From: Owenia fusiformis
Lineage: Eukaryota > Annelida > Polychaeta > Sabellida > Oweniidae
Length of the DNA stretch: 64,000 nucleotides
NCBI GenBank assembly: GCA_903813345.2
Contig: CAIIXF020000008.1
Coordinates: 19,390,822-19,454,821 of the forward strand
Direction: 5' to 3'
Under the pieces are notes generated by a model that did no database searches, was not told the DNA's origin, and saw only the letters and a program-made list of their open reading frames with translations. Positions 10,388-64,000 of this stretch are shown here, piece after piece (the stretch's first letter is position 1; each line of letters begins with the position of its first letter). The position numbers were made by a program, and so were the translations under genes.

Positions 10388-13639
<3,252 letters not shown>

Positions 13640-17136: not shown

Positions 17137-27317
<10,181 letters not shown>

Positions 27318-29400: not shown

Positions 29401-32310
29401 CTACACTGTAAGTACAAAAACAACTGAGTATGCGACTAAACTAGTAAGCATGAGCGAAACTGAATTATTCGGTGAGCCAGCCGATGAACCATCTGTTGAA
29501 GCGAGTTCCTTAGCTCTAGCTTCAGCCACTGCCTTATTTCGCTCGGCACCAGAAGTGTCATATGTGAATTGCATGCACGGTTCATCATCAGAAACTACTT
29601 TGTAAGCGTCGTCCCATATTTGCTCACAAAAGCTGTTGGCAGAGTCAAAGTGCTTGTCATACTTGTCACACTTTGATTCATCAAGACATTTCATCTGTCC
29701 ATCTGAAAATGAAATTAAGCAGTGTAGAAATATATGGGTTCCATGCAATAGTTTCTTGGTAAGGGCCGAAAATGTAAATACTATAAGGGTCCGTCCACTT
29801 TTTTGCTTTAACTCGTTAACTCACCTTTAAAAGGCATTAACTTAGAAAAGACTAAAAAGTGTTGAAAAACAGGACAAAAAGGGAACATTTTAGAATACAA
29901 TCAGTCGTAACGAAAACAAACAAAGAATTATGAACTTTTAAGCTAATCTTAATCCAAATGAATAATTTCAGGCATATATTTTTGAAACAAATATATATTG
30001 TTAAGAAAAAGAAGTTTCATACAAAGAAACGAATGACATTTTGTGATCGACGTCATCACATGCTTTTAGTTTAGCCAGACACAAATCGTTAATTATAAAT
30101 GCATGCTTATAACTAAATTTTTTATTTGGCATATTTTAATGTCGCTGTTCTACTTGCCCAAATGTGGTAAAATGTCGTACAATTAAGCTAATATAATAAT
30201 AATTCACTCGTCCTATGCATGTATGTAATAAATCTTGAGGTTTCTTACCTTGAGTTGATATGTTCAATCCAAGGAACCAGTCATTTGAGCACGTGTATTC
30301 CTTCTGACATGCGTTATACCATCGTTCGCAAGTACTTTGACATATAGGTAACCTACGCAGTGAATTCTTTTCCTGTAACAATTATAATTTGGATAAATAG
30401 TGTGATGTCAAATTATTGTTTTCAGTAGCGTTGGAGCTGTAATGTATCTTGGTTCTTTAAGTACTAAAATCCTATTTTCTATCTTTTTTGCATTTTTTAA
30501 ATTACTATTGATTTAAAAGATGGAATCACTTCTATAAAAATACTTTGCCATCTTTCAATGACATTGATAAAAACTTGATATATAAAGCTTGACAGATCAA
30601 AATTTTTTGATAATTTATTGTAAGCTTTGGTGTGGTCCATTTGAGTTGTTGTTGGAGTCAAATGAAAGATAAGGTTCTTATGAATACATTGGACATACAA
30701 TGAAATTTAAATGTAAGTCTTTATAGTGCTCAAAAATGTTGAAAATTCCCAAAGTGGGACTTTTAACTGTGATTGGAATTAAATAAGGGATAAATAACTG
30801 AAAATGATTTCAGACCCCTGTGATGGCGAGTGCACCTACAACCCCAGTGGTCTATTTACTGACCATTACAACCATAATGGCTTCAGCCGGTGTGAATGTG
30901 ACAACAATAATGGAGAGACATGTAGCTGCTGCAAGCCTTTCTACATGAAATGCCCTTATGGTAAAGTTTTTCACCACTTTCTGGTTACTTCATCAGTACT
31001 ATTGAGACGATTTAACTATATATTCGACATGTATTACTGAATTACTCAGTTATTGAAATAATATCCCTCTTCTCAATCAATCCTAGCTTTTATCATCATT
31101 AACATGCTTGTTTCTGGAACTGCCTTTGATGATTCTACCAAGGTGTGCAGCAAAGCAGCTTATACCAGCTCCCTACCATCCTGCTTCACATGCTCATGTA
31201 CACCATGCTCCCCATCACGCTCATGTACACCACGCTCCAACTCATGGACTTTATTAAAAGTCACAGAAATTAATTGCACAATTCGAAGGAGGATAAAATA
31301 TGACCTTTGATGACAGCATGTAATACTGGTTATATATGTTATAAATGATCTGACGACAAAACTCAGATGTAATGATACCGTAATGAAGAATTATTCATGA
31401 ATCTAAAATATCATACTGGTGTACACTAAATAAATATAAATTGAGTGTTAGTCATACTTTGCGGAAATCTCAAATTAATGCAATTACAACATCGTCTGGC
31501 CATTTTGGATTTTTTTACGGATCGAATATATGTCAAGTGGCCATGTTGGAAAAAGGTTTTGGCGTTACACTATTAACAATTACATATTTCGACCAACTTT
31601 GATGAAAAATGCATTTACTGGTATTTGAGATGCTCCGGGTGGTCGGATGGACTGAATGACGGATGGACTGACTGACAAACGAAGTGCTTTATTGCACTGT
31701 ATAATCTTCATTTGAATTCGTTGGGATAGCAAGCGGATTATTATAGATGATAATAGTATCAGCTTTTTTTAGTAAACATACCCCAAAATTCGGATGTTCC
31801 CTATTGATCCAAGGGCCAAGATCGGGGGAACAGGTGAAAAAGCAGCCCTCTTCGATAAACTTCTCATAACATGTTGCTCCTAGTGATTTTTTCTGAGGGC
31901 AGTGCGCATATGAGAGTGTGTAGTTCCGCAAAAGTTCTAGTAGGGGACCTGGTTTACAACAAGATCGATTGGCAAACGTGGGACACATAGAACCCTGAAA
32001 CGAAAGTTTTCAGTTGCATTAAAATAACTTTATTAGTCACAAGAAAATAATTGTTTTCTCGAAGACGCTGGTATAAAACTGATAATAATTGCATACTTAA
32101 TGCTTAAGTATTGTACGGCCTTAACTTATAACTCACCTCTAAACCAGGTTCTGGGCTTGGTGATGCCTTGGTATTGTCCATGCACATATTCAGGTAATCC
32201 GTCTGAGATCGCACATTTGTTTCAATAGTCATACACAGACATTGACCGAACAGCATCAACCAAACTGCAGACAATATGACCATTTTAGTCCTATTTGGAT
32301 CCAAAGCCAT
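29401..32310 (-). CDS. Folate receptor-like, GPI-anchored Cys-rich protein
   Basis: Exons 32310 (or 32283)-32137, 31994-31782, 30372-30249 and 29702-29401 join with phases 0, 0, 1 to give 270 (or 261) residues, the usual size of folate receptor / riboflavin-binding family proteins. Visible landmarks are a signal peptide starting MVILSAVWLMLFG; LNMCMD; NRSCCKPG; GCFFTCSPDLGPW, the family hallmark; PICQSTCERWYNAC; TCSNDWF; CEQIWDDAYKV. A hydrophobic C terminus (LMLTSLVAYSVVFVLTV) after a small-residue stretch fits a GPI signal. These proteins bind folate or related vitamins at the cell surface and are internalised; the ligand here cannot be told. The start at 32283 gives the cleaner signal peptide. 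A mariner element ends 42 bp upstream of the other start. Confidence 0.82.
30812..31310 (+). pseudogene. Cys-rich (chitin-binding-like) exon pair nested in the intron of the folate-receptor-like gene
   Basis: Exon one (30812-30960) follows an ATTTCAG acceptor, encodes DPCDGECTYNPSGLF... with eleven cysteines in 50 residues, and ends at a GTAAAG donor in phase 1. The expected continuation, GTAFDDSTKVCSKAAYTSS, is at about 31121-31177 and would join in frame at 31121. However, the bases before it read TTTCTG instead of TTTCAG, so the natural acceptor seems mutated; an upstream AG at about 31085 would add eleven unrelated residues. No upstream exon with a start codon is visible. The C-x-x-G-x-x-F...C pattern recalls peritrophin-type chitin-binding domains. 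It is probably a decayed gene fragment on the strand opposite to its host. Confidence 0.45.
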
Positions 32311-34519: not shown

Positions 34520-37500
34520 CTAACACTCTACCGCGTCAATGTCAACATACAATCCAGTCTTCTTATCTTTATGTACTTTGCCAATCCCTTTGCATTTACC
34601 ATTTCCTATTGGCTCTGGATTTGTACATATTCTGGCCCTACTTTTGGCACCATTTGTACAGTCAGTGAATGGAGTCCATTCGCCCCATCCCCCATCAGTA
34701 GATATAATATCATTTATCCAATCAATATAGTGAGGAACTTTGGTGTAAACGCCAGACATCACGCCACACGTATCTGATGGCCCCCAACTAACAATCCCAT
34801 ACTGAGTCCATTTATTCGTTTTTGGATCACGGCACATAAACGGTCCTCCAGAATCTCCAAAACACGAGTCCCTTGAATAACCAAGATAATACATACGTTA
34901 TCGTACTATAACTGGAAGCTTAAAGCATGATGATTTGACCCTTAGTCACCCTCGACCAAGTATCTGTATTTGCATTTTTGTGTTCGACCTTTCTTAGTTT
35001 TTATGTGTACCAGCAATCATGGTTAAAAGGACATTTGAAAAACAAAGCAAATCTTTCATGAACTAGTACAAAACGCCAATAATTTTTAATGTCGATCACA
35101 TTATGACACTTCTATCAACATTTAATTGGTACAAATACTGGCCTAGCTACAAGCTCCCCGTAGTCCCCACACTATTTGACAACACGCCTTCTTTTATGGG
35201 GAGGTATGTAGTCAAGGGGGGGGGGGTCACTAGGGCGTGTAGTTAGACTACAATAATACGTACCTATCATGATATCACACTTGGAATCCATGTTGTCCGT
35301 AGGTGAAATGCTTATTGATTATATATGATATGAATTAGTTATACTTACTTTCCATCTTTACTTGCACAGAACATATTATTAGTGACTTGCTTTGAGTCAT
35401 TTATATTGAGCCTACATGTCTCCTTCTTAAGAAATACTTCTAGAAGAACACTCGAGCCCCTCCAGTCATCTATAGCTCTTCTGCCCCAACCCGTTACCTG
35501 GCACCGCTTTCCGTTTAAAGTCCTGTCGGTGAATACAGGGTCTGTCGGCAATAATACTGGTTGTGTATAGTTATTCAATTCAATTGGGGGATCGACAATG
35601 ATAATTGCAATATCACTATCCAAACCATCGTAATCTGGATGCATAATGATGTTTCTGCTATACACGACTCTTGATTGTTCACTTGCCTCCCTCCTTGTTT
35701 TATCATGCTTTCCTGTCTTAAGAGTTATTCTTGGCATAGCTTCCACACAGTGAGCTGCAGTAAGAACATGCTTTGGTGAGATAAGCGCCGCCCCACACCC
35801 TTCAGAGTCAATCAACACCATCCACGGAAAATTATGTGGAGGATCCACCTCTTTTCCTCCGATGATAATAGGCTTTTTCTCAGTCAATCGTCCACCAGGA
35901 CAACCAGTACATTTATCTTCATTACAAGTCCTTATTGCAATGGTATTTCCAAGGCAAGGGTTTCCATCTGCTCCGACTGCACTATGGCATTGTTGCACTG
36001 CTACCTGCTTACCACAGCCTTTCAGGTCACATGCACTATAGTCAGTTAGATCACCTAAAAACCACAAATATATTGTACATTACATACTATAGTATATTGA
36101 TATTATTGTTAGATGGAGTAGTCTCTAACTTGAAAATATCCCCGAATTAAAAATACTCGTATCACCTGCAATATTTATTGATACATACTTCATTTCTACA
36201 AACACTAAAGCACGAAACATTTTTAAATTGCCATAACTTTTTTTTAATTTCTTATCGAAAATCACAGTTTGCATACCTAAAGAAACTAGAAGTTGCAATC
36301 TAGCCATGCATTAATTATGAATTGTACACTTTTAGTGTCACCAGCGTTTCACTTATGTGACCATGGTTTGATGTGTCATGGGAAATAAACACTAGGGAGT
36401 TTACAGGTTTTAAAGAGAACTTGTACGCGAGCGTGTGATATTTCGACCCCCGGGGATTACTGTACCATTATTTTACAGGTTCACGTACAAGTTTTTTTTA
36501 AAAACCACAAAGATTAGAGAATACTTTTGATCATGGTGCAGTAAAATATGCTTGCAGGAAGAGTGAGCAGGGCGGCCAACTTGAAATCAAGAAATTGATT
36601 ATCAATTTAAGGGTCAAGGTCAATTATTTTTATGCCTAGTGTTTTCTGATTGATCAGGATTAGATTTATCTTGCCTAGCTTTTGTGAATACCTTTTAATC
36701 CACGTTCACAAGCAGTTGTGCATGAAGTGTACATCTTTGATTTACAAGTGCACCTTGTACAACGGTCTTTCCAATACGAATAGGGACTTTTCCTCATCCC
36801 ATTAGATGTTTTGCACTTTTTGCAACCTGAAAGAGATCACCCCGTTTAGACAGTATTTTTTTCTTTTACTTAACGCCTTTTAGTCCAGCAGAAATACTGG
36901 GTATTTTGAGAATTAAGCGTTTTCTTCGGATTACAATTTTTTCAAACTTATCAGCATGTATTTGCTGTAGGGCTGGGGCCTCAAAACCACTGGATACCAC
37001 AGCGGTTCCCTAGAACTGTCTACAGAGCATTTGCCATTATAAGAATAATGATGAGAACTTAACGATCTACCCTCGTATATTGAATTACCTCTCTTATCTG
37101 TACATTTCACCTCTCCATTTTTGAGGCAGCTGCATTTGTTACACTTGTCTTCATTACTTATCCACGGTTTGTCGTACCATTTGTGTGAAACTCCGCTTAA
37201 ATCAACGCAAGTTACATCAAGACAGCACATGGAATACAGATTTGAGGCAGTTTCGTAGCACTTATAGCCAGAGCTACAATGCTTGCTCCCTCCTCCTTTA
37301 CACGGCCAAGGTGCTCGTGTGACAGAATTCATTTCTGGCTCACATCTTGGTATACCCTTATACTCACAACATTCTCGTTTAATACATTTGAATGTATTGG
37401 GACATTCCTCCCCACTTCGTCCACATTTCACATTTTTATATTTAAGTAAAGTAGTACCAGAGCAAAATCCACCTCTTCTTCTTCCTCCATCTAGCAGTCC

Positions 37501-38479: not shown

Positions 38480-40790
38480 GGGAGTAAAATGCAATCAAAC
38501 ACGTGAGACTTTCATTCATTTTGTACCCTATATTCGTGCGAAATTAACATTGATTAAACATAATTTTTTTAATTGTCTGAATCGCTTAAAAGTTAAAGTA
38601 AATACGATATTTTATAAGTACCAAATATCAATCATTTCCGATAAAATGCCTTCATTTGTTACATTTTCTACGAAAACGGCTGGGCATAATGTGGGTAGAA
38701 ATGTGTATTTACGACGTTACATGCATGGTTGAATCCAAAAAGTAGCGTCATTCAGGAAATTATCATGTGTGCGTAAAATCATGTGGATATTTCATTTTGA
38801 GTAACTGAATTATCAAATTGACATATATATTGTCTTTGGAACATCACCTTTACACAGAATTATTTTCATAATGATTGCTCGATTTGTTCCATGATGAAAT
38901 GCAATTTTAGACCTTGAGCTGACTCGTATCAAAAAGTATTTAGCAATGAGTTCAGGCTCACTGATTTTAAAGATAGATAAAATGAACGAAAGAGAAAAGG
39001 TTATGTGTGCCTAAAAGCAAAAGCGTGTCAGTATTTGGATTTGAAGAAATGAATTAAAGTTTTGACATTAATATTATTTGTGAAGCATCACCTTAACATT
39101 GAATTATTTTTATAATCTTTGCTTGATTCCTTCCATGAGAAAATGCAATTATAGACCTGGCACGCGTATCAAAGAGGTATTTGGCAATTGCGTCCAGTCT
39201 CATTGGTTTTCAAGGTAAATGAAATAAGCAAAACTGGAAAAGGTCATGTGTGCGTAAATGCGTGTCAGTATTTAATTTTGAAGAAATGAATTAATTTTTT
39301 GACATTAATATTATTTGCGAAGCATCACCTTAACATAGAATTATTTTTATAATTTTTGCTTGATTCCTTCCATGAGAAAATGCAATTATAGACCTGACAC
39401 GCGTATCAAAGAAGTATTTGGCAATTGCGTCCAGTCTCATTGGTTTTCAAGGTAAATGAAATATGCAAAACTGGAAAAGGTCATGTGTGCGTAAATACGT
39501 GTCAGTATTTAATTTTGAAGAAATGAATTAATTTTTTGACATTAATATTATTTGTGAAGCATCACCTCTACGCAGAATTATTTTTATAATTTTTGCTTGG
39601 TTCCTTCCATGAGAAAATGCAATTATAGACCTGGCACGCGTATCAAAGAGGTATTTGGCAATTGCGTCCAGTCTCATTGGTTTTCAAGGTAAATGAAATA
39701 AGCAAAACTGGAAAAGGTCATGTGTGCGTAAATGCGTGTCAGTATTTAATTTTGAAGAAATGAATTAATTTTTTGACATTAATATTATTTGCGAAGCATC
39801 ACCTTAACATAGAATTATTTTTATAATTTTTGCTTGATTCCTTCCATGAGAAAATGCAATTATAGACCTGACACGCGTATCAAAGAAGTATTTGGCAATT
39901 GCGTCCAGTCTCATTGGTTTTCAAGGTAAATGAAATATGCAAAACTGGAAAAGGTCATGTGTGCGTAAATACGTGTCAGTATTTAATTTTGAAGAAATGA
40001 ATTAATTTTTTGACATTAATATTATTTGTGAAGCATCACCTCTACGCAGAATTATTTTTATAATTTTTGCTTGGTTCCTTCCATGAGAAAATGCAATTAT
40101 AGACCTGGTACACGTATCAAGGTTGTATTTAGAAATTGCGTTCGGTCTCCTTGGTTTTCAAGGTAAATTAAATGAGCAAAACTGGAAAAGGTCATGCGTG
40201 CTTAAAAGCGTGTGAGTTTTTATTTTTGATACATTTTTTTGACATTTTTGACATTTATTATACCTAGGCTATGGGGAATCATCTTTACATAGAATTATTT
40301 TTTGATTCAAATTTAGTTCCTTCTATTAGAAAGGCATGGCTAAGATTGGTTCTTATGTACAACTGTAATGAGATCTTTATGTTTGAATCGCACAAAAAGA
40401 AATAATGTCACATGTGCGTGAGTGCATGTCAAAATATTTTAAAAACTGAATTATGATTTTGACATTTTCATAAGCTTTAATTAAACCATTGCCTTTCCAC
40501 ATATTTATTTATTTTAACATGAGAACTTTAAACAAGTTCATAACTGAACGGTCAATGTGAGTTGAATTAAAATAAAAAATATCAATTATCTGCGCATGTT
40601 GGTTATATTACGTCATACGGGATTTCGTGCTTTAAATGGGCTGAAAGTGGAAATGGCACGTGTGCGAAAACGTTTGTTATCAATTCATCTTTCAAAACAC
40701 ATTTTTATCTTTTACATATCTATGATCTATGATATATAACCTATGTAAAGAATTATTTTCATATTAATTGCTAGGTCAATTCAATAAGCA
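38480..40790. repeat. Satellite array, ~237 bp monomers with a two-monomer higher-order unit
   Basis: CACGCGTATCAAAG recurs at 39161, 39399, 39635, 39872 and (CACGTATCAAG) 40111, spacing 236-239 bp. More diverged monomers lie on both sides (about 38690-39150 and 40200-40790). Monomers alternate in type: 39161 and 39635 share GGCACGCG, GAGGTATT, AATGCGTGTC and TTGCGAAGC, whereas 39399 and 39872 share GACACGCG, GAAGTATT, AATACGTGTC and TTGTGAAGC. The central monomers are the most alike and edge monomers the most diverged. Confidence 0.88.
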
Positions 40791-42954: not shown

Positions 42955-42960
42955 TTTATT
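42955..42960 (-). promoter_or_regulatory. Poly(A) signal of the P450-RhoGEF gene
   Basis: AATAAA on the minus strand about 120 nt past the stop codon at 43079-43081. Confidence 0.55.
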
Positions 42961-43078: not shown

Positions 43079-44906
43079 CTATACAGTCAGATTGTCAGGG
43101 TCAGTGGATATATTTGAACTTGTACTATCAGCCAAGCTTTCAACTGGCGATGGTGTCTTTTTCAGGCTAGGTGATCCTTTACGCAGGGCTCCTTTCCTAA
43201 GAAGTGATGACTGGCGTCGATTTGTTGATGCCATAAGTGGGCTCCCCTCAACATTGACTTTAAATGGTTCTGGACGTATTGTAAACATATATTTCTCATC
43301 TTCTGATGGGACCTTGTCTTCATCGCTTGGCTGTACTGAAACCAACGTTACCAATCGGGCGATGAACATAAAGATCATCATTTGACACATGTTGTCACCA
43401 GTGGAGAGGCGGCTCATGGAGCTAACGTGGAAGAAATGCTCCGGCTTTATCAGCTGGTTCGTTTCATCCAGAAACCTTCAAAATAACAAAAAGCATCAGC
43501 GTGGTGAGTTTGACAGGGAAGTTGAATATGTTACAATTGATGTACATGATGTTTTCTTATATTAGGGAGGTAAAGATACACGGTTTCCGCTTGTACGTGA
43601 ACGTGTAGATTCATGGTCCTCTGTGGATAAGTTCTCACATTTGTACTGTTTACTTGGCCGACTTAGTATTAGGTATACGAAAAATAATTGTGATAAGGTC
43701 CCTAGGAAAGTCTGGACTGAGAGCGTGACAGTAATCCCGGGGTCGAAATATTACACGTTCCCGTACAGGTTCTCTTAAGAACGTGTAATTCAACCTCTCT
43801 ATTGAAACATATTTTGCCTACCTAGAGGGATCAAACTGCAAAGGGTCTGTCCAGTAAGTTTCGTTATGATGCAAACCCCAAATATTGAACAATACGCTTG
43901 TGTCTTTTGGTATGCTACATCCTGTAAAAAATGAACCACCACGTGAACATTTGAACATTTAATGGAACCATATACAAGGAAATGTTATAAACCAAAAAGA
44001 GCTAATGCTAATTCTTATTGTTAGTTTCGTTTGCTCTCTGGATGTCTTAATAATATCATGTTAAATTACAGATGAAAAACGTTCGCTTATTAAGTATGAC
44101 GCGGCCAATTACCTTTGGGATACACAGATACGTAAGCACGTGTGCCAAAGACGAAGATATTATTTTATAACACGAAAAGAATCCCCTACCTTGGAATGCA
44201 CAATTTGAACCTATTGCACGACTGAGAAAAAATGGATCGACACAAGCAATCCTCTGGACTTCGAGAAGTGTAGCCATTGTGTACGGTAGAGATTGTCTAT
44301 CATCTAAAGATACAGGCCGATCCGCAACAATGTTCCTCAGTTCATCGCGCATATTTGTTTGGACCTCTTGATTACGCACGAGATAAACTATTGTCCATAG
44401 AATATAAAGGGATGCAGTCTCGTATGCGGATCCAAAGATTTCTTTGACTTCTTTCAGCAGCAGCTCATCGCTAACCGTTTCTTCCGTCTTAGAACTATAG
44501 CACTGTTGTAGTATACAATCTAAAATAGTGGTCACCTTGGATTTGCTAAACGACTCCTTTTGCTCTTTTATGATATTTCTAAGAATATCCTGCTGTTCTG
44601 GTGTAGCCGCTGATTGCTTGAGCCTGCGATATCCTTTAGAGTCAAATTTTCCCCAAAGTGACATAAAGCCAACGTTTTCGTCCAGTGCAAGGGATGATAA
44701 TACCTGTTGATCAGTCTCGGATATGTCTGATTTTTTACCAAACAGGAGGGATAGCACTAGCTTGAATGTAGTCCGTGTTACAAGAGTCCTGGGATCAAAT
44801 GTTTCGTCCTCCATTACTCTGAAGTCGTCTGCAAAGTCACGTGATGCAAGACTGATTTGATTCTCTATCTCCTTTGTCATGTCTACCGTCTCGCTGCAAA
44901 TGTTAC
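43079..44906 (-). CDS. P450 C-terminal half of the chimera (three exons), heme cysteine lost
   Basis: Exons 44906-44190, 43921-43822 and 43475-43079. The I-helix reads FGSAYETAS with the acid-alcohol pair E697-T698; helix K has E750-VQ-R753 (ExxR); the PERF region is FDPSRF (803-808). The heme loop aligns without gaps to clan-2 P450s downstream of it (MIFMFIARL), but the ligand position is R829-L-S831-T-G833: serine where all catalytic P450s have cysteine, and V824 and M827 replace the conserved Phe and first Gly. C837 lies six residues on and out of register. After the usual P450 end (RPEPFKV) comes a 53-residue basic, Ser/Pro-rich tail ending NLTV. P450 identity is certain; oxygenase activity is unlikely. 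Confidence 0.88.
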
Positions 44907-47900
44907 CTACAGTGAAAAAACACAATAAGCAATATTGGAAAACACTAAATAACCGAACATCACCAAACCCCGTCTAAATCAAAAGTTTTGCATCCAATAC
45001 TGATTTTAATAGGAGATAAAAGGTTGAACACGCTTTTCAATGCAATATTAGAATGGGCTCACCTATCGCTTCATATTCATTTATTTCCTCGGCTTTTGTT
45101 ATTGCTTGTACCCAGTTTTCGCGAGCAACTCTGAAACATAATGAGAATGAGAATTTTTAGGAAAACATACTCTTAGTGAGATCTACGTTATGCTAATTTA
45201 TGTATTTCTTATAAAAATGTTAGAGCACGCACGAGTGTGAAACGGCCGTTGAAACGAGAGAATCAAAAGGTAGAAAACACAAGTAGAAAAAGTTAATTAT
45301 TAGGAAACAAAACCATGTGATACCAATTATCAGTTTACATGCATACACAGGTAAAAGGACATACCTCACCGGTAATACTATTTTTTTTACTTGAAATATC
45401 AATCCAAAATATAAAAATACAAATGACTCACACTGATTCACAGCCAAATACATAATAGTCATTCTTTGTTTGATGTTCATCTGCAAACGTGAGAGCAAAT
45501 AAATGATCACAACCACTGGGTACACCAAGTGGTAGTTTCTCATGTCCTGATATCTGATTCTTGTCGATCTCACTCACTTTGATTGGGGGCCGAGCGCCAT
45601 AGTCCAACACAACATATTTGTCGTCTCTGAAACACAACATCAAGTGCATTACTTAAAGGCCCCGTGTAAGTTTCAAACAGCACATTTTGATAACATTGGT
45701 TCGGATAATAATATAAATCAATGATGTTTAAACTTTATATGGGGCGAAACGCTTTTTTCTTGAAAAACTTGATTTATACAATATAAGTACATCACTGTTT
45801 CATGTGTTTGCTCCATTTAAAACACTTTCTACACAAAAAAGATTAAGATAAGTCAATCGTTGACAAATCATTCCAAAAATAGAGGGTTGTGTTCTTGTGG
45901 TTATCCTAATAGTGTCTCAGTCCAAACATTGAATTTGTACAATTCCCAATGATGAAAAATAAATAGATGTCCAGCGCGTATACTAGTCTACTGTTAAAGC
46001 CTATGACTTACTTTTTCCTCTTGGTAATCATAACAATGTCATTAAATACAAATAGATGTCGCAGTTTTCTAATCGCTCGTTTCTTTCTCGGGAGACTACC
46101 AGCGTCCGTGACAACTACTGAAGGCACTTGTCCCTGCGTCACCAAGTACCGAGAACCAGAGATCAACGGTATTTTCTGAAAATAGCATGATTATCGTTTA
46201 CGTTTTCACTAGACAGACTGTGTGCTTGCCAATTCAGGAAAATTCTTTGAATCAAAATAGCGTTTCTCTTTTATCGTGCTTCCTTGCTTCATCTTTTCAC
46301 AAGAACTCAACTTATGAATAAATAGATATATACTTATTGGTACAATGGGCAAAAGGAAAACCCCACACAAATTATAGAAATAATACAGTAGAAGACGGAA
46401 CACCGAAAAGCACCCAATGCAAATGTTCTAACCAGTGGGCAAACGCATAAAGAAACAGTATCAAACAATTCCCATTCAGTACGTCAAGTAAATTTAATAA
46501 TGCCATGAGAGCTCACTAACAGGCTTCTTAAAATAATTCATGATTTGATTCAAAAATGCCTTCAAATGTTGTTATTTGTGCTTCTCATTCCATTCATCCT
46601 ATGCTAAGAAAAGCAGACTGGCATTTGGTCTTTACATGCACGTAACTAGAATGGCTTGTCTAAAAGCTAAGGCATTGGGTTACATCATTAGAGTAATTGA
46701 TTTAGCATCGACATTGGTTTGAAGGCAACTTAGTCACTAAATATCTTGCTTTGTGACCGGAGTTGAAATTGTTTAACACACTGATTATACATACACGAGG
46801 AGGTGGATTGAGTGAGTCACAAGATAAGAACAATCGACCGATAGTGGAATCCCTTGATGAATAGCAACATTACCTTAACATTGTTAAAATCGAGCTGGTT
46901 ACTGATTTCAACCATCTGTTCTGTTCTTTCCATTTTTCTAGCTCCCTCGTTGCACTTTTTCACAATCTGGAAACGGTCATGGAAAACAGGTGAAACGAGT
47001 TGGGTCTTTGATAAAATAATTGGGTCAGTTACAAGTAAGGGTATTAGCACCATAGCAAGGAGGATACATGACTCACATTTGGAAATGTGAAATTAAAGGG
47101 GCAACGAAGAATTGAAAAAATCAAATGTTGAAATTTTACATTATTCTCTTCGCAAAACTTTTGAAAACTTGAAATCCACTTTCAATTCTGATGAACGAAT
47201 TGTTCAGATAATAAAACTATGATTGTAAGGAGAGCATAGGCATTTTGCTGTCTCTTTAAGGTATCGATGGCATCGTATGAAACCCATAAATCAATCTGGT
47301 GATTTATCTATTTACCACTTCTGTGTTTGATTTATTCAATAATACATAGTATCTGAACCTTTTAGATTGACATCATTATGCAGCAGTTGGTGTGATCCAT
47401 ATTAACCCTTTCCTGACGTGAATATAAGAGGCAAGTGTTTGCCTTGTGACTGATAAGTAAGAGTGGTTTTTAGGTAAAAGCTGAAAATGACGTATACCCC
47501 CGGACCTATACTTTAAATTGTATCTTTAAAATACAATTTTTAATAAGCATTATCACATGTCAATACCTTGTCAAAATTTGGTGCAAAAATACTGAATAGA
47601 ACTGGAGATATTGTCATTTCATTGATGTATGTAAATAAAACAGTGGTGCCAAAAGGAGCCTATCGTCCTGAAAGGGCTCCATATGGAGCCTATCGTCATG
47701 AAAGGGTTAAGATAGTTATTTTGATTTCATGACTTATATCTATGTTTATATTGCCTACATCTGCGGCCGTGCACAATTAAACCCCATTCATGTATTTCTT
47801 ACTATGAATATACCTTCTGCAAAAGTGACTTTGCTTTTGATGCAAACGTGTGTCTATCAGTGCCCTCTATAAGCCGTTTATGTATGGCATCTACGAGTAG

Positions 47901-50900
47901 GGGCAGTCGGGTGATCCTTTGCATAGGTTGCTTCAAGTACGAGGCCATGCTCATCCTCTGAACCTCAGGGTTCTTCTCAAGTTTTGCAAGAATTTCTTTG
48001 AACTGCTTATCTTTGCTGTAAATCAGAAATATCAGAGTGTATACTATATTTGATTCCAATTCCTTTACGAGGCTATGATTTATTTAAGGAATAAATAATG
48101 ATAGGCCATTCAATATGGTGAAATTCAGCACGAGTTGGACAGAATGTTGTACAAAGCACGAACCGAAGGTGAGTGCATTTGTACTAACATTCTGCCCAAC
48201 GAGTGCTGAATTTCACCATATTGAATGGCCTATCATTATTTATTCCGATTCAAACATAAAAATTAGTAAAAGCCGTGTCTGTGGAACGGGCATGAAGGAA
48301 GAATGCGCATGCTGTCAAGATTCTGAAGTTACATTAGTTACGGAGGGAGTAAAAAAGAACAACTTTCCCCGGACAGAGCCCCAGATGTGCAGCTGAGATG
48401 TGACGTCACTCAAAACAATGCAAATTGCAGATTGAATAGAGCATGGTCGTGCATCTATGGAGAATTAGAGAACGTTCTATATTGGCTATGCTGCATTCTG
48501 ATTGGTTGAGAAATTCGAATAGAGCACGGTCATGTTTGAATGATAAATTAATTCGATTATATTGATAACGCTAGTGAAGAACGGGGGGATAACTTACGAT
48601 AATTTGCTGAGTGACCTGTCCTGGTATATCTGGTTGCTGCAGTAGGTGACGTATACATCGAAATATTTGCTGGCGTGCTCTAATATCACTTCACAGATGT
48701 CCTCCATTATGCAATTTTCCTGCCATCGTTCCTCTAGTGCTTTTACAATTCTATAAAAAAGATAATGCTTTTAACACGATTTTTCTAGCTCTCATGAGTT
48801 ATATCGCCTATATTAAGCTTATAGTTAATACCCCTTTTGACACACCTTGGATGATACTAGACATAACTAGATATTTCCAGTGTTGCGCTTGAACTGACGA
48901 ATAATTATTGGAGGGGGTTATTATCGAAAGATATTTCTTTGGTTGTTAGGTATGGTAGTAAAATTATGTGTTTGGATATTTCCAAATTCTGTTTTCTATT
49001 AAAAGAGCAAAATTCCTTTGAAGATCTTTTTGTTTTGTAACTAGCAAGGAACTAAAAGCTTGTATTCGATCGCGAATGCAAATAGCGGCTACCGGATTAA
49101 CCTACTATTTATGGGCAACTCAATTAAGTATAAATAGTATTTGCCACTATTCCACACATATTTAAATGAATTGGTCATAAAATAGTGGGTTAATCTGGTA
49201 GCCGACAGTCGTTAGTTGGATTTGCGAATACAAACTAAGCGTGTATTCGAGAATGCAAAATTCAGTTGTGATTATAGGGCAACTCATTCAGATATAAATG
49301 AGTTGGTCATAAAATAAAAAAAATAGTAGGTTCATCCGGTAGCCGATCGCGATAAGTCGCTATTTGCGTGCGCGAATACAAGCTAATAGAAGGCTGTGAT
49401 CTCTCAAGATGCAAATTGGGTTGGGTTCTTCTTAATTTATGTAACCGCGAGTAAGAAATCTAAATGATGGGAACGATAAAACAGTCTGAGAGTTTAATGT
49501 AAAACCGTGTTTAATCCCCTGATTAGAACAGGCGCATAAAATAACCATATTTGTTAGTAAATATTAATTTATCACGAATCTTTGAAAATCCCAATAGAGA
49601 CATTATTCCCTATTGCTATTTTTAGCCATAAAGCTGTGAGGTTTGGAATTACAGGATTTATTACACCCTGGATATTTTAGGATTGATAAGGGTCGATATC
49701 AAATAGCTATACATCCGTGCTAAAGCAAGAGAACCGAAACAATACTTGGTATATTTTTATGCACTCTAGTTTAATATTTTATTAGATAAAGTACATTGAT
49801 TTTAGATGTTTGACGTCATGCTGAATTTTGGCCATGATTGTACGAGAACAGGTCTCTTATCATAAAATAACGAAAAATCGGGTACTTTGTTTCGTCAGAT
49901 GTCTAGAAGAAGCACAGATCAGTAATTACTAGGATGAAGAAAAAAACATCCTAGGTAATTAGAAGATAAGATTTTCATCTACGTTGATGAAGTCTTGAGT
50001 ACTACTTCTTTGCTGTTTTGCCTACCTTTCGCTTGTATCTCTCACTGCGGTTAGATTGGAGAATAGATGATGTCTGTCCATCTTACTAAGTGGAGACTTA
50101 TCACCTTCAAATTCTTTGGCATTCACAAAATTGTTGATGAGAATATCGAGGCTGTTTAAGTATCTAATCTCTGATGTAATCACCTCAAATATAGCCTAAA
50201 ATATAGAAACAGTGATTGTGCCTTTCATTTTTATCTCTAATGGCTCAATTGGGATATGAGCGTTTTATAAATGGCAAAGTAATGTGTACGAATTGGTTTT
50301 GAAACCAACTGGCTAGCAATAGTTGAGGGCATATAGCCATGGGAATAAAGAAGATTCTGGGAAGGTATGTTGTCTTAATTGGTAACACAAACCTGTGTAA
50401 TTACTACCGAGACTTGTTTAGATATTGGAAGGCTCTGGAGCGTGAAGTTAGGTGCCATGGAATGCTTACATACTATAGAACATATATGTTTAGACATTAC
50501 AATACCATCAGAATCCCATCTTCAACAGACACATTACCAGCCTTACCTAACTGATTGTCTAATACCATTGTCATTTAGTACAGCGATACACATGATGATC
50601 TATTGCAATCTCTTTTATTGTTACTTAGTGACGTGCCATCATTATTATCATACTACACGAGATACAACACCTACAAACTGATGATGAGGGTTTGCGTTTT
50701 GTACGCGGTTTAACAATATGCCCATCATTTCCATTTGCAGGTCATTTGCCGTAATTAAGAAACTTGTTTCATCATCCACGCCATTCATTTCGACCTTTCG
50801 ATGTATTGATCAATTTGAACAACGCAAGAATAGGGAGAGTTATATGGCATGACCATCGTTCAAGCTGACCTTCACTAATTTTAGGATTCTTATGTAATTG

Positions 50901-53900
50901 CTTCACTGTTCTCTGTCTGACGCAGGTCTGGCTTTTACATTTGTCGACTTCATCGATTTATTTGTTTGTGTTTTTGGCAGAACGTTGCGCATTTGACTTT
51001 CTGGATGGTTACATACTTTTTGTTTTATGGTATAATTATAGGATATGTTCCTATTCGTATCTTCTGATGTCGTTGTTGTAAAATGACAAATGAGAACTTA
51101 CCTCTTGTGTTTTCCGTTCAGAGGAATCGACAGTATCTATGAGACCATCAGTTGTTACCTGGAAAATAAGAGAACTCCTTTGATTAAAAGTATACTCAAT
51201 ATCTGAAAATCAATTAGCCTTAAATTCAATTTTGTGTTGACCTACTTTTAAGACGCGTACATGATAACACTAAATTAAAATACATTCTGATGGAAAATGG
51301 TCAAGACTATACTATCTGTATATCACAATTGAAAAAACATGAACGTGTTGTGTTAGGATCACAAAAATAAAAAAAACTTAGATTTGCCCTTGACTTTGAC
51401 CTTAGATCTCGAGCTTCAAAATATAACGCTCGCAGAGTTTTTTGGCAATTTATTCAATCCAAAGACTCAAAAAGGATTTTAATAATTGATCCTTGACCTT
51501 TTAAAGGCCACAGAAAATTAACCTTCAGTATGATCGTTACGTTCGACCTTTTTATAAAATAACAATCATAGCCTATATCAACTTCCTCATACACAATTCT
51601 GATCTCTGACAATGGCAACCATCTATAAGTTTAATATATCAGGAATCAATGTTAAATACATATTTATTTAATTTCTGGAATTTTATAACATAATGAATAT
51701 TAACTTTAACATTCATTATCAACTACCCTGCGTGCAGACACCGACGGAGTAAGAAGTGAAGTCGAACGAATGCAAAGGGTAATTATAATATTAACAGAGG
51801 CATGAAATTAACAATGCGACATTTCTGGGGTAAAACAAAATGATAACGATTGCCAAAATTTGTATTTGCATGTGATGAAGTCAAAAGAATATGGGAAAGA
51901 ATATAGGAATTACTCTAGCATTAATATCCATGTACTTTTGATTGATCTTGAACTATAGCATCCATTTTAAAAGGCCAACCATCCAATTCGGCTCTTAAGA
52001 AAAGTCCATATTAATAAGTTGCATTTACTTCTTGAAGATGGAGATATTCCTTTGATTTTAGCTTAAGAGCTTCATCATTTAATCCAATCGATCATACCGC
52101 TGTAATTGAGAATTATGTAATTCGTAAAGAAACTTGATCAAATGCTGTTTATACCATAAATCTGGGGTACCGAACCGATTCAACGAAGCTCATATCGGAT
52201 TATCTACAGCTTTCCCATTTCTGATTCAAGTTCATCATTAAAATTTACTTAAGATATAAATCAAATCATCGAATATTTAGTATGCTGTTGGTTTTTTCAT
52301 AGATTTTATGCTTTATGGGTTAGTCATTCTGATACTCATAGCAGCTTTCTGTTTCACATGAAACGTGATCTCAGGGCTAAGAAGAAATGATCAGATGTCT
52401 GTCATGGTTTATCATGATGGGTTTTAGTATATTTGTGTGTTTATTCGCCCAGGTTAGCATAATTTTGAGCAATTGAAAATGGAGCCCTTGCAATAGGTAT
52501 ATGTATTTAAGATCTTGGCTTTACTTCTTACTTTAAACAAATTTATGGTCTTAACATCAAAAATGTCTTATTCATAAATACTGTCCATCTTGCGACTCGG
52601 TCATTTGCAGGATTATGATCTGCTAAAAGGTTGTGCTATTCACACTGGATGATGATTTTCTGGCTCAAGCAAGAGCTGGCGCAATTTTTATTCAATTCTT
52701 CAATTTCCATTCTTCAGAGCTTTTATGGCATATTTGCCGAACTTCTTTTATGGTTACGTTTGTATTTGTGCAATACATTTACCAGGCCTCTACCTAACTA
52801 TATATGTCAGCTCTCTGTAGTTTCATAGTAAATAGTCTTGTTCAAGACTGTGTAGCCCCTGTACTTTGTGTTGCACTGGAAAGGTAAGTACACAGGGGGA
52901 GGGGCAGTCTTGAGGCAAGACTACATAGTTGAATACTAACCCACCTCTGGCATTTGACTCCAAAGTAACATCCTCTGTGCAGTAACTCTCTCCCGAAGTG
53001 TCAAGTCGTTGATGTCATCTGGTGTCTTACTGCGTTGAGTTTGCACCGTTGGAGTTCCCGCTCTTTTGGCACGACCTGCAAATCATGGATTTGGTGTATA
53101 TAATTAAAGTGTTGTATATATCGTCTCTTCATAATTTTACATGAGTACCAATTCTGAGGCCAATCCAGCCCATGCTCTTCAATGTATATTGGTGTATATT
53201 CGGCCCGGATATTCGGCGAACATAGATCTTGGGGAAGGGGCATAGAGAATAGCTCTTGGGGAAGGGGCGCAGAAGAATACTATGAAATTAGATACAAAAT
53301 GAAGATACTCAGAATTGATCAATACTTTTTGTAACGAGATCAATGACCATTGGTTTTTGCCGACCCTGGTGCCTGTAAATGAACTCCTTACAAGGGTTAT
53401 CAAAATGATATGTTCTACCATCTTTAAATTCCAAGCTACATGTAGGTGTGGTTATAATAATGATGTTGCAGCAACTGCAAGTTCTGCAACTTTGTGAATC
53501 AGCATGAAGCTAGTTAGCTTTTCAGTGTACATAACGGTTCATAACTCATGATTATACTTTATATAGACGTGACAATTTTACAAAAATACAAATAAATAGT
53601 TATTTTATAAGTAGTTCTGTGATATTTTGGACACAGTTGGTGCAATAGGTGATATATGGGAGAGGAGCAGGCCCGTAGCCCGTTTATTCGAGCACCCATG
53701 GCCGAGAACTGGTCAAATATTCTTTCAAAACCATGCAGTTTTTCAACATTCTGAGCACCTTTTAAGTGATTTTGGCAAATTTGTCAAAAGTGAACCCCCT
53801 GGAATTTTTTAAAAGTGAACCCCCCTTTGCAAAAGCTGTCTACAAGCCTGAGGAGCCCCTATTTATCTTGCACACAGCAATACACGCTACAAAGTTAATA

Positions 53901-55369
53901 TCAGTTGCCGTAGTTAAGTGATTGATATTGTTAATATATTAAAGCATGTAACTTCAATAAATGAAAAATTATCTAGGTGTCACGTCATGCATGCTTTAAT
54001 CTCGAGCTCTGAGAGCTTAATGTCTTGTTCATTTGTGAATATACGATTAATTATAACAGTTGGATAGCTATACGGCACTGTCTGGTCATAACATTTGTTA
54101 TTCAACTGCAACGGTCCCTGATTTATCTCTTCGATGTTCTCACAGGCAAAAAATCCAGTCATGTTTCCCCCACTGTACTAATACGATGAGTTCTAATCTC
54201 CTTTATGGGAATACGAGTAGCTTCACTTACGTATCGAGAACTCCAATGATAACAGTGGTTAAAATAATAAAACACTCGTTTCATTAATGTGTTATAAATA
54301 TCATTTACACTTAAAACATTTTATATCGATGAGTTTGTTAATAACTTCATCAATGTTAGCTAATCTCAAAGGGCCCAAGAGGAGTTATATTTGCAGATAA
54401 TCGGATTAATGGGAATAGTTTAAATCGTGAAATACTGACACTGGGAATTAAAAAGGAATAAATAGTAATCCATATCCTGATGTACTGCAATGTATCTTGA
54501 AACAGTATATTTATCATTTTGCCTGTTTCTGCTGCAACTTTTCATTTCTCCTATCAAAATAGGATTTAAGTAAGCACATTTGAATAACAAATCAACACAA
54601 ATTAATATCAGTCATAAGATAAATTATTCAAGGAGGAAACGTCATACCCATGTGAACCAACGTTGTAACCTACATGTACGCCCCTATCCTCTTCCTGATT
54701 AGCTATAGATAGATGACTGGCAAATCAGAATGTATGTAAACAATCTCATACTGATAAAAATGATAGTTTTGGCGAGGATGCACAAGTTAGCACAATGGAA
54801 AATAAAGCATGTAAAAGAATCAATGTCCCTAGTCTAGCTACAAGCCTTGGGTGGGTTCCGGGGGTGGGTTGTATCTACTTGACTGAACACCTTCTCACAC
54901 TTGTTGTAGTGGCGAAGGGGGGGGGGGGGGGTCACAAGGGCTTGTAGCTAGACTACAAAGTCCCCGAAACTATTCAAAATCGAAATACTGGATACTCACC
55001 ATTTTGAATGGATTCCACTTGGAATCCTGTACTCGTATTTCCATCTAGAAATGGCGCTCTTTCCGCAAGCAGTCCTTCTTTGAAGCCTTCCCACGAGGCC
55101 ACCACAACCACCTCCTTACGTCCAAGCTGTACACTAAATATGTCACCATACGTTTCTCTCCATTTTGAGATTACCCTGTGTGGTTTATCCCCTAGTAGAT
55201 GCAGGGAGCCTATGAAAGGGAGGCCAACAGGGCCTGATGGGCACGTTGTCTTTTTTCGTTTCTTCAACACTGCGAACCCTGCTACAAATGTCATAACAAC
55301 GACCCCCCATACGAGAACCATTTGGACGAAGCTTAGAATAAATCCTAACATGTTGTTTAATAGATCCAT
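43079..55369 (-). CDS. Chimeric gene: cytochrome P450 interrupted by an ephexin-like DH-PH RhoGEF module
   Basis: Thirteen exons: 55369-55000, 53075-52945, 51158-51102, 50195-50026, 48750-48598, 48015-47814, 46966-46874, 46175-46012, 45626-45432, 45130-45063, 44906-44190, 43921-43822, 43475-43079. All junctions have GT-AG and matching phase (1,0,0,2,2,0,0,2,2,1,1,2), total 938 residues. Residues 1-123 are a P450 N terminus (membrane anchor, KKRKK, Pro/Gly hinge, helices A-B). Residues 124-535 are an ephexin-type linker, DH domain and PH domain. Residues 536-885 are P450 from helix D to the end. Residues 886-938 are a Ser/Pro/Lys-rich tail. Helix C is missing and the heme cysteine is Ser831. 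The predicted role is an ER-membrane Rho guanine-exchange factor on a dead P450 scaffold (inference). Alternative: a RhoGEF nested in a P450 intron with terminal exons I could not find. Confidence 0.65.
43570..43790. mobile_element. MITE-like element in an intron of the chimera
   Basis: CTTGTACGTGAACGTGTA on the left and TACACGTTCCCGTACAGG on the right form inverted ends. The right part (GGGGTCGAAATATTACACG) matches 36412-36470 in reverse. It lies between the last two P450 exons. Confidence 0.5.
45063..53075 (-). CDS. Ephexin-like DH-PH cassette inside the P450 gene (nine exons)
   Basis: The linker LRERVTAQRMLLWSQMPEV precedes a DH domain. Its first conserved region is QEAIFEVITSEIRYLNSL with the key Glu (E195), and its third is SYLKQPMQRITRLPLL (320-334), so catalytic residues look intact. 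The PH domain runs from LISGSRYLVTQGQV through HLFVFNDIVMITKRKK to the closing helix ENWVQAI. This layout is that of the ephexin subfamily (Dbl-type exchange factors for Rho GTPases), which normally continues into an SH3 domain; none is seen here. The block is flanked by phase-1 introns on both sides, starts without a start codon and ends without a stop, as expected of a shuffled exon cassette. The final intron to the P450 half is only 156 bp. Confidence 0.88.
48088..48246. mobile_element. Near-perfect hairpin MITE in a RhoGEF intron
   Basis: GGAATAAATAATGATAGGCC...ATTCAGCAC on the left is mirrored by GTGCTGAATTTCACCATATT...TTATTTATTCC on the right. The arms are about 65 bp with one or two mismatches and the loop is about 30 bp. 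Downstream at 48433 and 48517, GAATAGAGCA(T/C)GGTC(G/A)TG is repeated and may belong to the same element. Confidence 0.75.
49058..49386. mobile_element. Two adjacent copies of a small inverted-repeat element
   Basis: GCTTGTATTCGATCGCGAAT (49060) pairs with GTGCGCGAATACAAGCTA (49368-49385). Inside, GATTTGCGAATACAAACT and AAGCGTGTATTCGAGAAT meet back to back near 49228. This suggests two head-to-tail copies (about 49058-49228 and 49229-49386), each with GGTAGCCGA and a CAACTC..T..TATAAAT block. They lie in the intron between the third and fourth RhoGEF exons. Confidence 0.65.
51225..51560. repeat. Diverged copy of the 1-2560 repeat family
   Basis: TTGACCTACTTTTAAGACGC, then GTGTTAGGATCACAAAAATAA and GATTTGCCCTTGACTTTGACC follow the same order as GACCTACTTTT..., GTGTCAGAATCGCAAAAATAA and GAATTTGACCTAGATTTTGACC in the units at 1-2560. 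Confidence 0.6.
52833..52923. mobile_element. Short inverted-repeat element beside the first RhoGEF exon
   Basis: TAGTCTTGTTCAAGACTG and CAGTCTTGAGGCAAGACTA are inverted partners 91 bp apart, with AGTACACAGGGGGAGGGGCA inside. It ends 22 bp from the 5' splice site of the exon at 52945. Confidence 0.6.
53668..53850. mobile_element. 183 bp MITE, ends CAGGCCCGTAGCC / CTACAAGCCTG, 5-bp target duplication
   Basis: CAGGCCCGTAGCC at the left and GTCTACAAGCCTG at the right are inverted partners; AGGAG is duplicated at 53663-53667 and 53851-53855. The interior has two AAGTGAACCCCC blocks. A similar end (GGCTACGGGCCTG) lies at 60224-60236. The 5-bp duplication matches the element at 15740-15959. Confidence 0.7.
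54831..54954. mobile_element. Short G-rich MITE next to the first P450 exon
   Basis: AGTCTAGCTACAAGCC and GGGCTTGTAGCTAGACT are perfect inverted partners around a G14 tract. It is the same family as 35140-35252. Confidence 0.75.
55000..55369 (-). CDS. P450 N-terminal exon of the chimera
   Basis: MDLLNNMLGFILSFVQ opens a hydrophobic anchor (about 7-34) followed by KKRKK and the hinge CPSGPVGLPFIGSLH, the standard start of an ER-anchored clan-2 P450. Next come helix A (HRVISKWRETYGD), the first beta strands (IFSVQLGRKEVVVVAS) and helix B (WEGFKEGLLAERAPF). The exon ends at VESIQNG with a GTGAGT donor in phase 1. In ordinary P450s the next residues form helix C with W-x-x-x-R. The donor instead meets, in phase, the first RhoGEF exon 1.9 kb downstream. 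The start is the first ATG with the anchor directly behind it. Confidence 0.88.
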
Positions 55370-62770: not shown

Positions 62771-63875
62771 CTGACAGAGACTGGTATGACCAAAGGCTTG
62801 CTATCAACTAACAGATCGAGACTGACAGATGGGTGTGACAATAGACTCACAATCACACTGACAGATGGGTGTTGCAAGAGGCTTACTGACAGACTGACAG
62901 ATGGGTGTGACAAGAGACAATCAAACTGACAGATGGGTGTGACAAGAGGCTTACAATCAAACTGACAGATGGGTGTGATAAGAGGTTTACAATCAAACTG
63001 ACAGATGGGTGTGACAAGAGGCTTACAATCAAACTGACAGATAGGTGTGACAAGAGGCTTACAATGAAACAGACAGATTGGTATGACAAGAGGCTTACAA
63101 TCAAACTGACAGATAGGTGTGACAAGAGGTGTACAATCAAACTGACAGATAGGTGTGGAAAGAGGCTTACAATCAAAATGACAGATGGGTGCGACAAGAG
63201 GTTCACAATCAAACTGACAGATAGGTGTGACAAGAGGCTTACAATCAAAATGACAGATGGGTGCGACAAGAGGCTTACAATCAAACTGACAGATTGGTAT
63301 GACAAAAGGCTTACAATCAAACTGACAGATAGGTGTGACAAGAGGTTTACAATCAAACTGACAGATAGGTGTGACAAGAGGCTTACAATCAAAATGACAG
63401 ATGGGTGCGACAAGAGGTTTACAATCAAACTGACAGATAGGTGTGACAAGAGGCTTACAATCAAAATGACAGATGGGTGCGACAAGAGGCTTACAATCAA
63501 ACTGACAGATGGGTGTGATAAGAGGCTTACAATCAAACGGACAGATGGGTGCGACTAGAGGCTTACAATCAAACTGACAGATGGGTGTGACAAGAGGCTT
63601 ACAATCAAACTGACAGATGGGTGCGACAAGAGGCTTACAATCAAACTGACAGATGGGTGTGACAAGAGGCTTACAATCAAAATGACAGATGGGTGCGACA
63701 AGAGGCTTACAATCAAACTGACAGATGGGTGCGACAAGAGGCTTACAATCAAACTGACAGATGGGTGCGACAAGAGGCTTACAATCAAACTGACAGATGG
63801 TTGTGACAAGAGGCTTACAATCAAACTGACAGATGGGTGTGACAAGAGGCATACAATCAAACTTACAGACGGTGT
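62770..63875. repeat. 36-bp minisatellite, about 28 copies
   Basis: The unit is CTTACAATCAAACTGACAGA then TGGGTGTGACAAGAGG. Because 36 is a multiple of three and the unit has few stops, frames stay open on both strands (12-residue periods such as DKRLTIKLTDGC and CQFDCKPLVTPI). Units of two types (AACTGACAGATAGGTGTG and AAATGACAGATGGGTGCG) alternate between about 63100 and 63500, giving a 72-bp higher-order unit. The left edge (62770-62900) is the most degenerate. Confidence 0.9.
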
Positions 63876-64000
63876 GATGCTATGTTGTCAATGGGGTACC
63901 TGAATCTGAACATTCAAGACATTTTTAGATTTTTTTAACAGCTCCATAAATAGTCAACAATATCGATCATCGCTGATACTGACGTGTATATAAGGGTTAT

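Follow-up and report, generated by a model that had tools for sequence, protein, structure and literature searches.

The locus considered here raises a simple question: does one gene of the annelid Owenia fusiformis encode a cytochrome P450 whose chain is interrupted by the DH-PH module of an ephexin, a RhoGEF, or do two genes share the place? It lies in a stretch of 64,000 nucleotides, hereafter the window (contig CAIIXF020000008.1, positions 19,390,822 to 19,454,821 of the forward strand), in which a first reading of the letters alone (the sequence-only reading) had placed twelve exon junctions of matching phase and a single 938-residue frame. Both are obtained again when the gene is rebuilt from the window sequence: on the minus strand, 13 exons form 938 codons in one frame with a single terminal stop, the introns are GT-AG in 12 of 12 cases and the phases match at every join. 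The observation of a one-frame P450/RhoGEF chimeric gene model is confirmed. We consider it probable that this is one gene encoding one 938-residue chimera made by exon shuffling, that is, a membrane-tethered ephexin DH-PH on a heme-free P450 shell.

The gene model and its joins

The features of the gene, in window coordinates, are as follows.

Exon 1, 55000..55369, minus strand: N-terminal part of the P450 as far as the B-C loop, with membrane anchor, proline hinge and first beta region; phase-1 end
Intron 1, 53076..54999, minus strand: 1,924 bp; first chimeric junction, at the position of the phase-1 intron found ahead of helix C in related Owenia P450s
Exon 2, 52945..53075, minus strand: start of the ephexin cassette, pre-DH region, with LLWSQMPE
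Exon 3, 51102..51158, minus strand: ephexin pre-DH region; the preceding intron 2 is not in the canonical gene
Exon 4, 50026..50195, minus strand: DH domain
Exon 5, 48598..48750, minus strand: DH domain
Exon 6, 47814..48015, minus strand: DH domain, including QPMQRITRLPLL
Exon 7, 46874..46966, minus strand: end of the DH domain (KCNEGARKMERTEQ)
Exon 8, 46012..46175, minus strand: PH domain
Exon 9, 45432..45626, minus strand: PH domain
Exon 10, 45063..45130, minus strand: end of the PH domain; its donor, at YEAI|G, is phase 1 and corresponds to YEAW|D, which precedes the SH3 exon in the canonical ephexin
Intron 10, 44907..45062, minus strand: 156 bp; second chimeric junction, phase 1
Exon 11, 44190..44906, minus strand: P450, starting just past helix C and including the I and K helices; EVQR is intact
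Exon 12, 43822..43921, minus strand: P450, with IPKDT and FDPS
Exon 13, 43079..43475, minus strand: P450 PxRF, former heme loop SRLSTG (Ser for Cys) and last part of the fold, followed by a basic, Ser-rich tail at the C-terminus and the stop
AATAAA, 42955..42960, minus strand: candidate polyadenylation signal about 120 bp past the stop, a consensus match only

The nine exons of the cassette lie within 53075-45063 and are bounded by phase 1 at both ends, and three P450 exons follow within 44906-43079; the symmetrical phases and the 156 bp to the next P450 exon had been described in the same way before. In the joined product, Pfam finds p450 in two stretches (1.9e-66; 225.2 bits, above the gathering cut-off of 22.8), RhoGEF (9.2e-34) and SOS1_NGEF_PH (8e-7), so that all three domains named in the sequence-only reading are present, and the tandem DH-PH is found by structure matches as well.

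The joins also bear on another explanation, according to which the locus is occupied by two transcription units: the RhoGEF exons would be used separately within a P450 intron, and the fused model would be an annotation merge. A splice from exon 1 to exon 11 would also be in frame, both being phase 1. The cassette had been said to lack a start of its own; this holds at its exon boundary but not for internal starts, Met159 being in frame within exon 2, from where it could begin a short DH-PH protein. Separate use is opposed by an in-frame stop a few codons upstream of exon 2 in the unspliced frame, and by the donors of exons 1 and 10, which belong to the top 1% of the region's GT sites and join in phase. 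Other sites had been called consensus with some generosity: the donors of introns 5 and 6 are low-scoring, and the acceptor of exon 2 is 56% pyrimidines. The Owenia annotation pipeline combined STAR, StringTie, Trinity, Mikado, Augustus and PASA, and RNA sequencing supports 99.29% of the annotated transcripts, a general figure that is not specific to the fusion gene (PMC9977687, consulted in part). A model built in this way, from short-read RNA with Augustus and PASA, can merge neighbours. Two separate units are, in our judgement, unlikely, though they deserve to be kept in mind.

It should be added that the gene model itself is not new: an identical protein of 938 residues, letter for letter, is already deposited in NCBI/UniRef as an unnamed Owenia fusiformis product. 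The chimera is undescribed as far as the literature searches go. Neither a P450-RhoGEF fusion nor a pseudo-P450 is reported in the titles and abstract openings of the literature matches listed, a set that is itself partly incomplete, and the terms P450 and gene fusion do not occur in the main text of PMC9977687.

An assembly artefact joining two unrelated loci is very improbable. Nothing direct speaks for it, and the deposited protein apparently comes from the same contig and so gives no independent check; the junctions are introns of 156 and 1,924 bp with matching phases at both joins, and the read N50 of the PacBio data, given as 25.75-30.75 kb in the part of PMC9977687 consulted, exceeds the 12.3 kb of the gene.

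Both parts also carry, on average, a coding signal. The chance of an open P450 frame of 528 codons is about 5e-15 under base composition. Mean coding scores, trained on six intronless Owenia P450s against the fusion gene's own introns, are 0.082 for the P450 exons and 0.097 for the cassette, against -0.159 for the introns, and the G+C content at third codon positions is equal (0.42) in the two parts.

Origin of the ephexin cassette

On its sequence, the cassette is an ephexin DH-PH module. Its best structure match is ARHGEF16/ephexin4 (1.6e-82), and the DH core motifs TSE, PMQRITRLPLL and NEGARKMER are kept. A genome search with the cassette gave 13 matching stretches at two loci, eight in the fusion gene and five in the gene of the canonical Owenia ephexin, P0151, a protein of 1,487 residues with DH, PH and SH3 domains encoded on another chromosome (C1, 62,201,769 bp).

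The fusion shares its DH-PH sequence with the ephexin family RhoGEFs (NGEF, ARHGEF5/15/16/19/26); with P0151 it shares, in addition, gene structure. All seven introns found inside the DH-PH region of P0151 are present in the fusion in the same phase, and phase-1 introns flank the DH-PH exon block in both genes. In the alignment six of the seven coincide, and the other, beside a gap, is shifted by one column. The 3' ends of the block correspond (YEAW|D and YEAI|G), yet lie four columns apart in the global alignment. The 5' edge cannot be matched residue by residue because the fusion has intron 2 in addition and a shorter first cassette exon than P0151. The donor is an ephexin of P0151-like gene structure, not necessarily P0151. 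In a tree of 32 ephexin rows, built without non-ephexin RhoGEF rows and by a program that flags long branches as unsure, the cassette falls inside a set of 14 lophotrochozoan ephexin rows with support 91/94 (not starred), its exact place being unsure.

The same genome also shows the receiving side. Elsewhere among the Owenia P450 genes, an exon starts directly before helix C, and its junction is phase-1 [G]|GN in seven of the eight loci read (L013, L015, L016, L018, C1:32262801, C9:34659394 and C7:8295109, with C1:44517476 as the exception), a reading of acceptor and frame with the donors untraced. Two of these loci, L015 and L016 (G000:C1:47070447 and 47104223), lie about 34 kb apart and are near-identical over the part read. 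The end of exon 1 in the fusion agrees in place and phase with this pre-helix-C intron of its relatives. A symmetrical 1-1 module thus sits within a phase-1 intron, which is the signature of exon shuffling, and the exon-shuffling origin put forward in the sequence-only reading is strongly supported by these shared introns and phases. A duplicated ephexin DH-PH block with phase-1 flanks would have been inserted into intron 1, itself phase 1, of a P450 gene of clan 2.

The module differs from the ephexin family in that it lacks the long N-terminal region with its inhibitory helix, lacks the SH3 domain and sits inside a membrane-anchored P450. Pfam finds no SH3 in the product. P0151 and four other ephexins, together with separate SH3 and N-terminal queries, were searched by tblastn over the window and 30 kb upstream; neither a credible SH3 (best E = 1.0) nor a credible match to the N-terminal region with the inhibitory helix was obtained there. 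A nested ephexin gene with missing ends was rejected on this search, and the absence of such exons is also an argument against two transcription units. The C-terminal SH3 is also absent from Ephexin5 (PMC6406967, consulted in part). Among 61 ephexin columns conserved at 95% or more, the fusion keeps 42 and loses 19, of which 12 belong to the join or to the missing SH3 region and seven lie in or beside the DH-PH; the most losses among the seven comparison rows scored are those of fish arhgef15b (10/65).

State of the P450 part

The P450 part matches, by sequence, the structures of CYP17A1, CYP1A1 and CYP2R1, which suggests a host P450 of clan 2, an assignment of our own. With the microsomal P450s of this clan (CYP2/CYP17/CYP1) it shares the N-terminal anchor and hinge, ExxR (EVQR), IPKDT, PxRF (FDPSRF) and the fold, and within the heme loop the Arg and the last Gly are intact as well. 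It differs from them by a 411-residue insertion in the B-C loop, an extended Ser-rich tail, the lack of helix C and the replacement of the heme-ligating Cys of FxxGxRxCxG by Ser, with the F and the first G of this loop also replaced.

Forty-one P450 columns are conserved at 85% or more in 29 homologues. The fusion keeps 30 and loses 11, namely the helix-C W and R, the I-helix G, the heme-loop F, first G and Cys, and five others. Of the heme-site columns 6 of 8 are lost, of the remaining columns 5 of 33 (Fisher p 0.002), the sorting into these two groups having been made after the result was seen. The other Owenia P450 loci serve as a control: 24 of 25 have an R-x-C-x-G heme loop (the full motif in 17, a looser one in 7 more, several of the 25 being overlapping stretches of one gene), and none was seen in L026.

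The loss of the heme cysteine had gone unnoticed in the sequence-only reading, which took the protein for a P450 with an insert. Since the heme cysteine and most other heme-site residues are lost, it is probably not a working P450 of that kind; the P450 part is probably a heme-free shell in which the core of the fold is retained. This state also argues against two transcription units, since the P450 left to itself would be without helix C and the heme cysteine.

The absence of helix C, reported earlier, stands: WxxxR is missing from the product, and a profile search of the window (2,862 stop-to-stop pieces of at least 15 residues) gave no helix-C exon, only the four known P450 exons passing the inclusion threshold. 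A scan for W..RR-type motifs on the minus strand between 43 and 64 kb gave no helix C either. A hidden helix C in intron 10, where the frame of exon 11 stays open for 22 codons, was considered and rejected, the residues having no likeness to helix C by eye. In L013, L015, L016 and L018, translated matches to other P450s begin at or slightly before helix C and continue past it. The exon of the relatives therefore runs on beyond helix C, and the fusion would have lost the start of the old exon 2 rather than a separate small exon. Both helix C, encoded where the next P450 exon begins, and the heme-ligating cysteine would have gone, leaving the heme-free shell.

The P450 part is single-copy, with no close paralogue in the genome. 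Of 73 genome matches, three are the gene itself; the other leading ones are 25-39% identical over the matched stretch, and short matches of lower rank reach 52% over 63 residues. Beyond the P450 fold, about 50 residues (window 43079-43230) form a tail rich in Ser, Lys and Pro that is not seen in the aligned P450 relatives.

A comparison may be made with P450 BM3, a natural P450-reductase fusion, in which a P450 domain is also joined to another domain in one chain. The P450 of BM3 is active and its partner is its reductase, as stated in the part of the literature consulted, whereas in Owenia a signalling exchange factor interrupts the fold of a P450 that is itself probably inactive.

Weight and meaning of the chimera

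A structure model of the product resembles both kinds of fold, its 50 best Foldseek matches including CYP17A1/2D6 and ephexin4. The model is confident from the I-helix to the C-terminal P450, where 16 of 18 ten-residue blocks between 701 and 880 score 76-96; the relative placement of the P450 and DH-PH parts in the model is not reliable. The alignment behind it (A2, 19 rows) was picked among tried subsets, 9 of 40 random sets being acceptable in one script, and a mixed alignment (A1) was discarded after MAFFT had placed P450 rows on the DH domain.

Several points weigh against a membrane-tethered, heme-free chimera. The structure model is only moderate (mean predicted local distance difference test score 64.7, predicted template modelling score 0.50) and is therefore used for fold-level conclusions only. 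As far as the source consulted describes it, the deposited model is a short-read-guided annotation, and expression of the fused gene is presumed. Coding scores are weak in exons 4 (0.031), 5 (0.003), 12 (-0.031) and 13 (0.034), and the coding frame is outscored by a different one in exons 5, 8 and 13. The best BLAST match of the cassette is a clam ephexin (48.1% identity) and not Owenia's own P0151 (46.7%), so that P0151 itself need not be the donor copy. The loss of helix C by deletion is deduced from relatives that differ in later gene structure, and the location in the endoplasmic reticulum (ER) and the lack of heme are likewise read from the residues. Among the matches listed, no second species has the fusion: the two domains occur together only in the Owenia protein, which is 1 among the best 120 of 377 matches in one search and 1 of 30 in another, and no such protein was among the best 120 of 709 matches in a further search. 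These searches limit candidate length and require shared words, and a distant relative could therefore be missed. The cassette branch is long (1.02, against 0.48 for P0151), and the seven conserved positions changed in or beside the DH-PH, one of them an L to Q next to PMQR, compare with 2 changes of 62 in all in P0151; both could mean decay.

These last points lead to a further alternative, namely that the fusion did form but that the locus is now decaying or weakly used, without a selected function. The long branch, the lack of an orthologue among the matches listed, the changed DH-PH positions and the 11 of 41 lost P450 columns would all fit such a dying chimera. In contrast, 938 codons are free of stops and frameshifts, the average coding signal is present in both parts, the core DH motifs are kept, and the P450 losses cluster at the heme site while fold residues are kept, with the reserve on column sorting given above. 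We hold a dying chimera to be rather improbable.

If the preferred reading of a single chimeric gene is right, its anatomy suggests how the protein would work. Exon 1 encodes a hydrophobic peak (2.51 over 19 residues from residue 17) followed by KKRKK; a hydrophobic anchor followed by a basic stretch is the pattern of microsomal P450s. The P450 N-terminus would anchor the protein in the ER membrane with the remainder facing the cytosol, the P450 shell would keep the inserted DH-PH near the membrane, and the DH-PH is predicted to exchange nucleotide on a Rho-family GTPase. An "ER-tethered Rho regulator", as the sequence-only reading put it, would fit this anatomy. Since the N-terminal region and the SH3 of ephexins have been left behind, autoinhibition of the ephexin type should largely be lifted from the DH domain. 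Removal of the SH3 increases ephexin4 activity (PMC5493634), and an N-terminal helix inhibits ephexin1 and ephexin3 (PMC6406967), both papers having been consulted in part. Control would then come from location, from the P450 shell or from the new tail, whose basic character and many Ser, Thr and Pro residues make it a plausible site for such control.

It is also conceivable, although we regard it as a speculative and improbable extension, that the shell retains a lipid or steroid pocket and that binding there moves the inserted DH-PH, which would make the protein a small-molecule-gated ER-resident Rho activator. We know of no precedent for a receptor of this kind. If it were true, a gated receptor would have arisen in one exon-shuffling step together with loss of catalysis.

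The surroundings of the gene may be described briefly. An Rfam search gave no match. Intron 5 holds an inverted repeat (window 48088-48246, 61-nt arms, 95% complementary), possibly a small mobile element. On the minus strand, Pfam finds trypsin in two open reading frames (ORFs) among those at 10388-10909, 17887-18579 and 35345-36067, the third having thrombospondin type 1 and a sub-threshold trypsin end; similar-looking ORFs elsewhere on this strand suggest a tandem protease family. A plus-strand ORF with a reverse transcriptase domain (RVT_1), followed by an ORF without Pfam match (window 3264-5396), is probably a retrotransposon copy, and a short minus-strand ORF at 29401-29748 has a folate-receptor match under the Pfam cut-off (24.9 vs 29.8 bits). 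Tandem repeats lie on either side of the gene, of 237 bp (6.2 copies) at 38763-40229 and of 36 bp (29.5 copies) at 62821-63877; the ORFs in the latter are mechanical, because the repeat is open in several frames. Upstream of the window, L030 and L031 carry two similar open frames of 287 codons, which by a motif may be sulfotransferase-like, and L030 also has reverse transcriptase-like ORFs nearby.

In the Owenia gene a P450 would have become the structural scaffold of a signalling enzyme, and a RhoGEF would have come to the ER membrane stripped of the parts that usually inhibit it. The gene is also a clear example of symmetrical-phase exon shuffling in which the ephexin gene with matching introns and the P450 genes with the matching host intron can both still be read in one genome.

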